Below are positions 53,755-57,761 of a DNA stretch of 64,000 nt, piece by piece. The stretch spans positions 186,001-250,000 of the forward strand of contig NZ_JAGOBJ010000007.1 of NCBI RefSeq assembly GCF_017983445.1, given 5' to 3'. The position numbers and the translations under genes were made by a program. The notes under the pieces are model-generated. The model saw only the letters and a program-made list of their open reading frames with translations. It was not told the DNA's origin and made no database searches. The stretch comes from Halomonas sp. GTDB taxonomy: Bacteria > Pseudomonadota > Gammaproteobacteria > Pseudomonadales > Halomonadaceae. The number at the start of each line of letters is the position of its first letter. Position 1 is the stretch's first letter.

Positions 53755-54456
53755 TCAAGCAGAATCGTGTAAGCGGGCCCGCAGGCGGCTTATCGCCTGG
53801 CTATGCAGCTGCGACACGCGCGACTCAGTCACGCCAAGCACTGCTCCCACTTCTTTGAGGTTCAGCTCTTCCTGGTAGTACAGCGCCATCAGCAGTTTTT
53901 CCCGCTCGGGCAGCGCCTCAATGGCGGTAATTAACGTTTGCCGCTGCTGCTCATCAAGCAGTTTTTCAAACGGTAGATTGCTGACATCAAAGCTTGCTGG
54001 TTCGCCGCCATCGGCGACAAGCTCTTCAAATGGCAGTAACTGGCCGTTATTGGTGTCGTTAAGCAGCTGCTGATATTCATCGAGCGGCATATCAAGCTCA
54101 AGCGCAATTTCCTTCTCTTCCGGTGGGCGCCCCAACTGCTGCTCCAATCGGCGAACCGTGTCATCCATTGCGCGAGCAGCGCGCCGTACGCTGCGTGGCA
54201 TCCAGTCGCGTGTGCGTAGCTCATCCACCATCGCACCACGGATACGCTGGCTTGCAAAGGTCGCAAAACTGGCCCCTTGAGCGGCGTCAAAACGGCCTAG
54301 CGCTTCTAAAAGCCCTACGGTGCCTGCCTGGATAAGATCATCAAGTTCAATGCTTGCCGGTAACCTGACCTGCAGCGTTAAGGCGTGACGTCTTACCAGT
54401 GGCATGTACTGCGCTAACAGCTCACCTTGTTTGATTCTGCCTTTTGCTGTGTACAT
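53755..54456 (-). CDS. fliA: RNA polymerase sigma factor for flagellar operons (sigma28)
   Basis: Directs late flagellar and chemotaxis gene transcription. 233 residues with sigma regions 2 (SIELDDLIQAGTVGLLEAL and FATFASQRIRGAMVDELR), 3 and 4 (LNLKEVGAVLGVTESRVSQL). GAGG lies 7 bases before the ATG at 54456. It is placed between flhE and motA, all on the minus strand with short spacers. Confidence 0.96.
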   Translation of the reverse strand: MYTAKGRIKQGELLAQYMPLVRRHALTLQVRLPASIELDDLIQAGTVGLLEALGRFDAAQGASFATFASQRIRGAMVDELRTRDWMPRSVRRAARAMDDTVRRLEQQLGRPPEEKEIALELDMPLDEYQQLLNDTNNGQLLPFEELVADGGEPASFDVSNLPFEKLLDEQQRQTLITAIEALPEREKLLMALYYQEELNLKEVGAVLGVTESRVSQLHSQAISRLRARLHDSA

Positions 54457-54482: not shown

Positions 54483-54887
54483 TTACTGGTAGTTCACGAT
54501 TACATTTAGCCCCTGCACGCGTACCGGTCGCTGACCTGGCCTCAATGCAAAGCGAAACTGCAGTGGCGCATCCGCTTGTTTGCCCGCTAGCTGGGTAATG
54601 GTACCGCGCCCGCCACTCAGCGCAACGCACTGCTCTGGATGACATAGCCAAGCGTTAATGGCCGCCCCTGGAGGCGCTTCAAGCCGCCAGTGTATACGGT
54701 CAAGCATACCGTCATGCACCGGCGCGCCATTGGGTGGCGCGATCGACTGACTGCGGCTTTCACGATCACTCATTGCCACCATCACGCTGGGTACTGACGC
54801 ACTCCAGCTTCCCGCTGCCTGAGCAGCGCCGATAACGCTCAAAAACCCACCCACAACGCCGACTACCTTTAACCATCCGCTTAGCAT
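54483..54887 (-). CDS. flhE: Flagellar protein FlhE
   Basis: Periplasmic flagellar protein that in enterobacteria limits proton leakage through the export gate. 134 residues from ATG 54887: signal peptide (hydrophobic residues about 5-25, ending AAQAA), then the FlhE fold with INAWLCHPEQCVALSGGRG, a likely disulfide pair, and the family ending VQGLNVIVNYQ. It lies after the FlhG-like gene instead of directly after flhA, and 26 bases before fliA. Confidence 0.82.
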   Translation of the reverse strand: MLSGWLKVVGVVGGFLSVIGAAQAAGSWSASVPSVMVAMSDRESRSQSIAPPNGAPVHDGMLDRIHWRLEAPPGAAINAWLCHPEQCVALSGGRGTITQLAGKQADAPLQFRFALRPGQRPVRVQGLNVIVNYQ

Positions 54888-54910
54888 ACTTGGTATTTCC
54901 CACACTCAAC

Positions 54911-54978: not shown

Positions 54979-55596
54979 TCAGCGCGCCAGTAACAGCAGA
55001 TCAGTGGCTAGATAATGCGCGGCAGCTTCACGCAAATTACTCAGCAGCCCTTGGCGCGGTAAATGCGGTTCGTGCAGCGCCAAAAGCTGGCGTGGGCCGC
55101 CGTTTTCACGTGCCTGGCGTAAAATGCGATACATTTGCGCAAACCCATCAGCCTCGCTGTTAACCCACAGCGCCCAACGGGTGTTTTTAGCGCTTAACTG
55201 AGCCAGTTCGGACGCATCTGCCTTGACTACATGAATAGCCCAGTCATCAGGATCACCCGCCCAGTGGCGTCCCAATTCAGCCCACTGCGCCAGCCGACGT
55301 TTTACCTGATTGACTGACGACACTCCATGGCTAGGCAAACCAACGATGAATAGCGTTTTTTTAGGCTTTATCAGCGGACGTTCGGGTAACTCTGGCATGC
55401 TGAGTGGGGGCGTAAAAACGCTTTGCTCAAGGGTCTCGCTGGCTTTTTCAGCTTCATTTTCAGCGACTCGAGCCTCTACCACTTGGGGCTGTGCTTCAGT
55501 CTCTGTCTCTAAAGGCACATCAGAGGTAGCTTGAGTCTGTTTCAAACGCTGAGTATCTGCCCATTGGCGCAGGCCCGCCGCCTGATCCTGGCTCAT
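54979..55596 (-). CDS. FlhG-like remnant with DQAxxLR motif but no Walker A motif
   Basis: 205 residues in the place where flhG/fleN normally follows flhF, and overlapping the flhF stop by 4 bases. It starts MSQDQAAGLRQWAD, matching the DQAxxLR helix by which FlhG stimulates the FlhF GTPase. An acidic, low-complexity linker (about 20-65) follows. The rest begins TLFIVGLPSHGVSS (81-94) where MinD-type ATPases have GKGGVGKT; no Lys or Thr of a Walker A motif remains, and the protein is about 70 residues shorter than FlhG. I infer a FlhF partner without ATPase activity; a database search is needed to settle the family. Confidence 0.7.
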   Translation of the reverse strand: MSQDQAAGLRQWADTQRLKQTQATSDVPLETETEAQPQVVEARVAENEAEKASETLEQSVFTPPLSMPELPERPLIKPKKTLFIVGLPSHGVSSVNQVKRRLAQWAELGRHWAGDPDDWAIHVVKADASELAQLSAKNTRWALWVNSEADGFAQMYRILRQARENGGPRQLLALHEPHLPRQGLLSNLREAAAHYLATDLLLLAR

Positions 55597-57761
55597 ACGC
55601 TCACCTCCTGGCTAATACTGCCTAGTTGGCGAATAGCGTCACGTGCCATAAAGGCATACACCAGCGCATCCAACATCGCCGTATCACGCCGTTTGCGACG
55701 CGCGCCCAAAAGGCTCAGCAGATCGGTACGCAGGGTCGAAGCCGCATCATCCTCGGCGCTATCCAGATGACCAACCACAGCGGCCATGCCGCTAGCCATC
55801 AATAAACGCACCTCTGGGCTCAGGTCTCCGCTATCTGCCTCTTTCAGCTGCTGCCAAGCACGCTTCGTGAGCGCCGCCAGCCCTTCACCCTGTAGCTGTA
55901 TCAACAACAGCGAGAGAATATCGGCGCCTAGGTGAATTGGCGTGAGCCAATAGCGCCGGGCAACCACCTTGGCGCTTTCCGGGTCACGAATCTCGCCATA
56001 CCATGCCAGTAATGCGTTGCCAGTCTCATCCTGCACTTCTGCATAGGCGGTCCATAGCTGCATGAACTGGCCACGAAAACGCACGCCAACATGATGGCTG
56101 AGCGTGCTGTCATTAAACAGTAAGCGCAGCGCATAGCGCTCGCCGTGAAAGTATACCCGCTGTGCCGAGGTAACCATGCTGACCCAGGTCAGCTGCTGGG
56201 CATTTAACCAATGCATGGTTTCCGGCGCGGGTAGAACGGGCAACAAGTGCGTACTCGTTCCAGCCGTTTCTTGTAGATGTGCCAGACGCGCCTGCCAACC
56301 CGCAGGCTGGCGGTGCTGAAGCCTGGGCAAGGCAAGCCAGGCATTCTGCTCATTAAAGCCGATATCCGGCATGGCCCAGTCGCAGCCGCGTTCATTACGT
56401 CGCGCAGCCCAGACTACTCCTTGAGCAGGTGAAGGATGGGCAAGCTGCCGGTCAAGCTGGGCATCCTGTAACCCACCCGGTAACGCACCAATATCCCATA
56501 CGGCTTCAAGAGCGCTGAAGCCTGCCATACGTTGGCGCAAGCGCGTGAGTAGCGATGACAGCCGCCGACCTTGGCCCAGCACATCCCGCGACCAGCGGGG
56601 CATGCTGACAGGCGCCGGCAACACGGCGCGCGTGCTCATGGTCCCCTGTGTTTCCAGCGCCTGATCAATCAGCGACTCGGGCAATGCCACGCTCATGTCC
56701 TCAGGCACCTGCTGCCCATGCGAACTGAACAGCACGCGCATTCCATGGCGTATGACGATATCCAATACCGGCGCTAACCGGCCGGCTTCGTCCTGCTTAG
56801 TGATAATACAGTCATCAAGCTGAGCACCCGCCGCACGCGCGGCCTGGCGATAACGCAGCACGACTTCCTCAAGGGTTTCTGGCTGGCTGGCCGCGTTCAG
56901 TAGAAGCACCAGACGAACGGTAGACTGGCCTCCCTGCAGATGAGCAATCTGCTCTATTACCCGCTGATCACGCTGGCTCATGCCCACCGTATCTATCATG
57001 ACCCACTGCTTGCCCTGCAGACGCCCCAGCAGATCATCGACCGGCTGCTCAGCGTCTAACGCATACATGGGTGTATCCAGAAGGCGGGCGTAGATTCTTA
57101 ACTGCTCGTGGGCACCGATACGAAAACTATCCGTGGTCACCAAGGCCACGGGGCGCGTGCCATGCCGCATCACAAAGCGGGCGGTAAGCTTCGCAGTGGT
57201 CGTAGTCTTGCCCACCCCGGTAGGACCGACCAGGGCAACAATGCCGGTCTGATCAAAAAAGCTGGCTTCTTCGTCCAGCACACTGAGCCTGCTGGCCAGT
57301 TGCTGACGCAGCCAAACCAGCGGTTGATCACTATGTGTATCAAGCGCTTGCAGTGATTCAGGCAGCCCTCCTAGCAGTTCGTCGCTAAGCTCGGCACTGA
57401 AGCCCACGCGGCCCAGCAGCTGATATAGCCGCTCTCGTGTACCTACTGCTTGGGGAGATTCAACAGGGCGGGACGCCTGTTGGCTGGTAATCAAGGCGCG
57501 CATATCCTGCATTTCGCGCAGCAGCCGCTCGCTCATGGCCTGCAGAGGATCCTGCGTCTCGACAGGCAGCGGCGTTAGCGGGCTCGCAACCGGCGCTGGG
57601 GCAGCCTCGACTGGCTCGACGGCCTCGTCCGCCATCGCCAGAATTTCAATGCCATCATCGGTGCGCCGGTTGGCTAGAATAAGGGCATCATCGCCAAGTG
57701 TTTCACGTACCTGGCGCATGACATCACGACTGTTTGCTCCAATAAAACGCCTAACGCTCAT
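55593..57761 (-). CDS. flhF: Flagellar biosynthesis GTPase FlhF with long C-terminal extension
   Basis: SRP-type GTPase that sets flagellar position and number. 722 residues against the usual 400-500. The N-terminal B region opens MSVRRFIGANSRDVMRQVRE; the NG domain has GPTGVGKT (179-186), DSFRIGAHEQLRIYA, DTVGMSQRD (257-265) and TKQDE (321-325), and ends near residue 385. The remaining 335 residues match nothing I know: they are Gln/Leu/Trp-rich, mixed alpha/beta in appearance and without a membrane segment. The gene lies 54 bases after flhA and overlaps the FlhG-like gene. Confidence 0.92.
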   Translation of the reverse strand: MSVRRFIGANSRDVMRQVRETLGDDALILANRRTDDGIEILAMADEAVEPVEAAPAPVASPLTPLPVETQDPLQAMSERLLREMQDMRALITSQQASRPVESPQAVGTRERLYQLLGRVGFSAELSDELLGGLPESLQALDTHSDQPLVWLRQQLASRLSVLDEEASFFDQTGIVALVGPTGVGKTTTTAKLTARFVMRHGTRPVALVTTDSFRIGAHEQLRIYARLLDTPMYALDAEQPVDDLLGRLQGKQWVMIDTVGMSQRDQRVIEQIAHLQGGQSTVRLVLLLNAASQPETLEEVVLRYRQAARAAGAQLDDCIITKQDEAGRLAPVLDIVIRHGMRVLFSSHGQQVPEDMSVALPESLIDQALETQGTMSTRAVLPAPVSMPRWSRDVLGQGRRLSSLLTRLRQRMAGFSALEAVWDIGALPGGLQDAQLDRQLAHPSPAQGVVWAARRNERGCDWAMPDIGFNEQNAWLALPRLQHRQPAGWQARLAHLQETAGTSTHLLPVLPAPETMHWLNAQQLTWVSMVTSAQRVYFHGERYALRLLFNDSTLSHHVGVRFRGQFMQLWTAYAEVQDETGNALLAWYGEIRDPESAKVVARRYWLTPIHLGADILSLLLIQLQGEGLAALTKRAWQQLKEADSGDLSPEVRLLMASGMAAVVGHLDSAEDDAASTLRTDLLSLLGARRKRRDTAMLDALVYAFMARDAIRQLGSISQEVSV

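Follow-up and report, generated by a model that had tools for sequence, protein, structure and literature searches.

A shortened FlhG relative without a P-loop follows flhF in Halomonas and is probably an ATP-independent activator of FlhF

Background

What would an FlhG without its ATPase site be, where would it come from, and what could it still do for flagellar assembly? Published accounts treat FlhF and FlhG as a single conserved GTPase/ATPase switch. This question is raised by a stretch of 64,000 nucleotides from Halomonas sp. (assembly GCF_017983445.1, contig NZ_JAGOBJ010000007.1, positions 186,001 to 250,000; hereafter the window), in which the gene directly after flhF, here termed gene X, encodes a short protein, X. 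A preliminary description of this DNA placed X in the flhG position, with the DQAxxLR activator helix present and the ATPase site absent, and these three observations hold. The reading that we favour, and regard as fairly probable, is that X is a reduced FlhG of the type found in Betaproteobacteria; the helix of X would trigger the FlhF GTPase and its body would dock nucleotide-free, most likely on the flagellar C-ring.

Gene X and the layout of its product

Gene X (54979..55596, minus strand) is an open reading frame that begins with ATG and encodes a product of 205 amino acids, a shortened FlhG relative without a P-loop that belongs to a conserved family and whose body is homologous to betaproteobacterial-type FlhG. 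Its start sits within the stop codon of flhF (ATGA, with 4 bp common to both genes), and the purine-rich AGGAGGTGAG lies immediately 5' of the ATG. The overlap of 4 bases and the length of 205 residues given in the preliminary description were thus reproduced by the reading frame and its translation. Its account of the N-terminus is correct as to the DQAAGLR helix and incorrect as to the position of the motif, which is not at residue 1 and occupies residues 4-10, after the N-terminal MSQDQAAGLRQWAD.

Three parts can be distinguished along the protein, all encoded on the minus strand. The N-terminal activator (enhancer) helix (residues 1-20, 55537..55596) is delimited by the invariance of its motif, by a low rate of nonsynonymous substitution (dN) and by the predicted structure, which has a helix at residues 5-24. 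It is followed by a linker (residues 21-76, 55369..55536) of variable length and with no conserved columns, which, judged from the alignment and from predicted local distance difference test (pLDDT) values of ~47-77 per 10-residue block, is probably disordered. The remainder (residues 77-205, 54982..55368) is a conserved alpha/beta body without a P-loop, defined by profile alignment with hhalign, by the model and by its ratio of nonsynonymous to synonymous substitution (dN/dS); it is predicted to comprise five strands and four helices, with pLDDT mostly >90. The lack of Walker A, already noted in the earlier description, is borne out: GLPSHGVSS stands where the P-loop is expected, GK[ST] occurs nowhere in the protein, and Gx4GK[ST] is found in 0/44 homologues.

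Searches of Pfam and NCBIfam with the window protein returned no family at E <= 10, Pfam searches with 38 X proteins gave merely scattered weak matches, each in a single member, and a sequence search of the PDB, with the X protein as well as with the family profile, gave no match at E <= 10.

Origin of the body

When the X body, freed of its helix, was compared with 40 betaproteobacterial-type FlhG proteins by hhalign, the two profiles aligned over 112 columns (probability 96, E 3.6e-9, score 59.2). The matched part of FlhG opens shortly ahead of Walker B and extends to strand 8; in a betaproteobacterial protein of 294 residues the alignment starts at about residue 95 and ends at 219. The controls scored 15.1 (reversed profile), 10.9-18.0 (eight column shuffles, with E values of 0.04-0.5) and 10.9 (FlhF NG domain), and the comparison with 16 canonical FlhG proteins from the order of Halomonas itself yielded no signal (score 18.1). 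X stops with the strand corresponding to strand 8, and Geobacillus FlhG extends 65 residues further. Because the helix-free body aligns far above the controls, X is, as judged by profile comparison, a betaproteobacterial-type FlhG minus the P-loop half and minus the C-terminal tail. The proposal that only the FlhF-activating motif had been kept does not survive this result: X also has a body of ~130 residues that is a homologue of the C-terminal half of FlhG and is under purifying selection. Two further candidates, X as a fragment of FlhF (E 0.62 against the NG domain) and X as a relative of the C-terminal extension of FlhF (E 0.3), were rejected by the same method.

An unrelated Rossmann-like domain might instead have gained the DQAxxLR helix or, through a fusion, have taken the place of the FlhG body, so that X would still activate FlhF with a body of other origin and with another partner. 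That matches of X to FlhG in the predicted-fold comparison are tied with those to unrelated Rossmann-like folds, that no solved structure is matched by sequence and that the canonical FlhG set gives no signal would all agree with such a replacement. We nevertheless consider it unlikely, in view of the profile alignment well above its controls, of N187, which is invariant, and the position of Y195, both shared with betaproteobacterial FlhG, and of the unchanged gene place and order. A fold unrelated to MinD/FlhG, which the preliminary description named as a refuting outcome, was not obtained: the profile alignment connects the body with FlhG, though the fold comparison by itself leaves FlhG level with unrelated Rossmann-like folds.

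Betaproteobacterial-type FlhG and the order of the losses

The betaproteobacterial sample consisted of 39 genomes of the order to which genome G251 belongs, hand-picked for family spread among 101 FlhF-bearing genomes, together with three named plasmid records, and the gene after flhF was read in each; the set includes Burkholderia glumae and Cupriavidus. We take the order to be Burkholderiales, because the Cupriavidus and Burkholderia rows fall among these genomes in the FlhF tree. FlhG was found at 40/42 loci. The signature KGGxGK[ST] is present in 0/40 of these proteins, and a GK[ST] of any kind aligns with the P-loop in 10/40; DQAxxLR is present in 39/40, the exception being L126 with HQASGLQ. 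The order of Halomonas exhibits the reverse pattern, with KGGxGK[ST] in 16/16 FlhG proteins and DQAxxLR in 0/16 (FlhG was found at 16/17 fetched loci, not at L077). Among the controls, FlhG of Aeromonas caviae and of Bacillus velezensis carries both modules, and that of P. aeruginosa the ATPase only. At the two remaining betaproteobacterial loci, L128 and L131 (genomes G606 and G646), we observed very long FlhF frames (879 and 970 amino acids) and no recognizable FlhG beside flhF.

FlhC was detected at E <= 1e-30 in 23/39 betaproteobacterial genomes and not in the other 16. Loss of the P-loop as a mark of FlhDC systems was considered and rejected, since GK[ST] persists in five proteins from genomes with FlhC and in five from genomes without it. 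FlhC is also present in the Halomonas-type genomes with X. In a tree built from 73 FlhF NG domains, 19 rows from the order and family of Halomonas, with short FlhF, stand apart from 42 betaproteobacterial rows, 11 Halomonadaceae rows and Aliidiomarina (support 100/98); the position of Halomonadaceae inside the betaproteobacterial side is not settled, and G088 forms a long branch.

The preliminary description had attributed the separation of the two tasks of FlhG to the present lineage. The signature P-loop is gone in 40/40 sampled betaproteobacterial-type FlhG proteins, and therefore the separation probably began in the betaproteobacterial type. Erosion of the ATPase site thus probably preceded the truncation, and probably did so in an acquired flagellar cluster. 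A betaproteobacterial flagellar cluster is described as having been transferred into enterobacteria (PMC12826062), and we infer by analogy a parallel transfer of a betaproteobacterial-like cluster into Halomonadaceae. In the open-licence literature of PubMed Central (PMC) we found no statement on the loss of the P-loop from betaproteobacterial FlhG or on this Halomonas protein.

Conservation and distribution of X

Whole-genome searches detected X homologues in 73/146 relatives, the source genome counted, namely in 70/82 genomes of the genus, 3/9 of other genera of the family and 0/55 other genomes of the order. Within the genus the co-occurrence is complete: 70/70 genomes with X have FlhF (E 1e-32 or better; partial in G016, G045 and G053) and FlhC, and the 12 without X have no FlhC and a best FlhF-type match of E ~3.7e-25 to 3e-20, i.e. 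at the level of Ffh/FtsY. Absence of X was called at a threshold of E <= 0.01, and the homologue in G082 scored just 2.4e-4; a diverged X in G088 could therefore escape detection. Among named genomes, 91 X loci were confirmed by a scan, and 80 of them were retained; nearly all of these are labelled Vreelandella, Halomonas or Billgrantia, with one Halovibrio and one Aliidiomarina.

The motif DQAxGLR is invariant in 38/38 aligned X proteins, and DQA[AST]GLR is found at 79/80 named loci, the exception (L175) being truncated where its contig stops; such recurrence goes far beyond chance. The helix has a dN of 0 in 8/12 pairs (maximum 0.043). For the body, dN/dS could be estimated in 10/12 pairs and ranged over 0.037-0.143, so that X is not a decaying pseudogene. 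In two less complete genomes (L055 in G046 and L067 in G032) X is split in two frames, by assembly error or decay.

X could also be what remains of an flhG that is being lost, as in enterobacteria, and have scarcely any function or none. The graded shortening would fit this, from ~270 amino acids in betaproteobacterial FlhG through 145-295 in X across Halomonadaceae to G088, where X was not found, as would the E. coli-type systems described as having neither gene (PMC12826062). We hold it to be very improbable, given the constraint on the body and a helix dN/dS near 0, the retention of X in 70/70 FlhF-bearing genomes of the genus, and its place beside flhF even where the pair lies far from flhA (see below).

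Linkage with FlhF and search for another FlhG

The adjacent flhF (55593..57761, minus strand) encodes 722 amino acids and was identified with the NCBIfam FlhF family (TIGR03499, E 2.3e-66). Its GTPase motifs are intact (GPTGVGKTTT, DTVGMSQRD and TKQDEA), and at X loci in general G1 is conserved in 87/87, G3 in 86/87 and G4 in 87/87 FlhF proteins. An overlap of 4 bp between flhF and gene X occurs at 52/77 measured named loci. The C-terminal extension of FlhF (~340 amino acids, 55596..56615, minus strand) resembles Tn5 transposase in its predicted fold; Pfam and PDB searches with the extension gave nothing useful. The long extension is shared with one betaproteobacterial genome, G517 (probability 96.7, E 3.5e-10).

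The pair can be separated from the rest of the cluster: in G415 (L220, 945-3763, and L132), of the same family, flhF and X lie near 1.94 Mb and flhA and flhE near 3.31 Mb, ~1.4 Mb apart. The X of G415 has 152 amino acids and agrees with the family mostly through the helix (in a one-sequence search, E 5.7e-7 with the full profile and 0.0058 with the body alone); because the profile match is weak, it was assigned chiefly by its DQASGLR and its place after flhF. In G088 (L082) a long flhF is followed directly by flhE, with no X found; the FlhF branch length of 2.03 may mean that FlhF changed fast once X was gone. Aliidiomarina haloalkalitolerans AK5 (L211, 1802-5275) has flhA, a long flhF (a frame of 729 amino acids), X and fliA, arranged as in Halomonas but with no flhE between; its FlhF falls among Halomonadaceae rows in the tree, suggesting transfer of the module. 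Two genomes of other genera of the family (L069 in G085 and L070 in G083) possess short FlhF (frames of 428-429 amino acids) and no FlhC, with fliA directly after flhF and no FlhG at that place.

The source genome (3.9 Mb, rated 100% complete) was searched with the CbiA and AAA_31 profiles, which revealed no intact FlhG at another place. CbiA gave 16 and AAA_31 6 matches at E <= 1, with 7 and 4, respectively, above the cut-offs; by NCBIfam names the proteins above the cut-offs are ParA (with a score under that model's own cut-off), MinD, CobB, ApbC, a GET3/ArsA-type ATPase, CobQ and Ffh. A normal FlhG serving FlhF from another locus, the other refuting outcome named in the preliminary description, was thus not obtained in these searches, since these proteins all have other identities.

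On the minus strand the gene order of the window is flhB, flhA, flhF, X, flhE and fliA, followed by two motor genes; FlhF and FlhE were named from family searches and the others by reading the translations. flhE lies at 54483..54905 (Pfam FlhE, E 1.6e-16), and fliA, which encodes sigma-28 and is next in the order flhF-X-flhE-fliA, at 53755..54456 (named from its translation), both on the minus strand.

A possible mode of action

The ancestor of X would have been a betaproteobacterial-type FlhG of an FlhDC-type flagellar cluster, with its MinD-like ATPase site already eroded. Halomonadaceae would then have lost the half with the P-loop and switch I, as well as the C-terminal membrane-targeting tail, leaving the DQAxxLR helix, a flexible linker and a compact body derived from the former C-terminal half. 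By supplying the catalytic glutamine, the helix would cause the FlhF dimer, with GTP bound, to hydrolyse it; the motif glutamine of FlhG is described as stimulating the FlhF dimer (PMC12826062). The body would dock on a partner without any nucleotide, most likely the C-ring proteins, and the contact between FlhG and the C-ring is described as nucleotide-independent (PMC7226244, PMC12327844). FlhF would thus be switched off where the C-ring is under construction, and neither a dimer that depends on ATP nor a cycle on and off the membrane would be involved, so that flagella may be positioned in these bacteria without the customary ATP switch.

The FliY-binding residues K177, R207 and F215 of Geobacillus FlhG map to R160, N187 and Y195 of X. 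Geobacillus FlhG was numbered so as to match the three residue types, which a single offset satisfies; in one place the source paper gives the arginine as 277, a residue that would be F at that offset. The position of R160 is R or K in 33/38 X proteins, that of N187 is N in 38/38 and that of Y195 is Y or F in 37/38; N also occupies the N187 position in 26/40 betaproteobacterial FlhG proteins. X is probably an ATP-independent, monomeric FlhF activator that retains most of the mapped C-ring-docking residues. GTPase stimulation, docking on the C-ring and the monomeric state of X are what we infer; both nucleotide-independent tasks of FlhG may survive in X, and dimerization with ATP and the cycle at the membrane may be gone.

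Alternatively, X might be non-catalytic, with the helix as an anchor to FlhF, and act as a brake that sequesters FlhF or C-ring proteins, restricting the flagella instead of resetting FlhF. In polar species FlhG regulates the number of flagella negatively (PMC7226244), and the body is conserved in a manner that a simple GTPase-activating peptide would not need. The motif glutamine is, however, invariant (38/38), and the Q8A variant of B. subtilis FlhG is described as resembling an flhG deletion (PMC12327844), which makes a catalytic helix the better explanation and the brake rather improbable.

Flagellation pattern

The scan of named genomes found X in all the Vreelandella, Billgrantia and Halomonas species whose flagellation is compared here. 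Peritrichous flagella are reported for V. titanicae (PMC3622986), V. zhanjiangensis (PMC4148996), V. venusta and V. neptunia (PMC10690426), peritrichous or lateral ones for V. aquamarina and lateral or lateral/polar ones for V. hamiltonii (PMC10690426). Billgrantia antri is described as having one polar flagellum or being peritrichous (PMC10690426) and H. llamarensis as lophotrichous (PMC10291192). The flagella of B. glumae, which has betaproteobacterial FlhG, are polar (PMC3885665). A strict link between X and peritrichous flagellation was rejected, with H. llamarensis and B. antri as exceptions. For the link to a multi-flagellated pattern suspected in the preliminary description the data are no more than suggestive: most described species with X are peritrichous, but one is lophotrichous and one polar or peritrichous, and there is no one-to-one match of pattern and X.

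Comparison with known systems and implications

FlhG/YlxH of Bacillus, Geobacillus and Aeromonas resembles X in the place of its gene directly after flhF and in its N-terminal DQAxxLR helix; the X body is homologous to its C-terminal half, and the K177 and F215 positions are basic and aromatic in X. It differs in having 270-300 amino acids with KGGxGK[ST], against ~205 without a P-loop, and a C-terminal tail past strand 8 (65 residues in Geobacillus), whereas X has no membrane-targeting helix. Betaproteobacterial FlhG shares with X the DQAxxLR motif, the missing signature P-loop and an FlhF of the same clade, but has a full-length MinD-like domain (~260-300 amino acids) where X has a half-domain. 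FleN of Pseudomonas is likewise placed between flhF and fliA and mirrors X, with the ATPase site present and DQAxxLR absent; the absence of DQAxxLR from FleN is already in print (PMC12713375). With MinD/ParA there is only a distant fold relationship: X has no P-loop, and the genome encodes its own MinD and ParA.

Tentatively, and with somewhat less than even confidence, we propose that a stepwise dismantling of the ATPase switch of FlhG may be legible in living genomes. The series would lead from FlhG with both modules (Aeromonas, Bacillus), through FlhG with an eroded ATPase site and the helix kept (betaproteobacterial type) and the half-domain with the helix (Halomonadaceae), to a genome in which no helix protein is found (G088) and finally to the loss of both genes (E. 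coli, from the literature). X, as a C-ring-docked, ATP-free activator of an FlhF that has gained a domain with a Tn5-transposase-like fold, would be part of a rewired switch for flagellar positioning and the missing intermediate to enteric systems without FlhF and FlhG. A 2025 review leaves undecided whether flhF and flhG were omitted from the betaproteobacterial cluster on its transfer to enterobacteria or were lost afterwards (PMC12826062); Halomonadaceae look like a parallel case that retains flhF and a reduced flhG, and the enterobacterial question is therefore testable.

Gene order alone is unsafe for annotating an FlhG ATPase in the Halomonas-type group. If our reading is true, X would be a natural minimal FlhG for biochemistry, and FlhF activation would be separable from ATP-dependent counting, with a whole flagellar branch running on activation alone.
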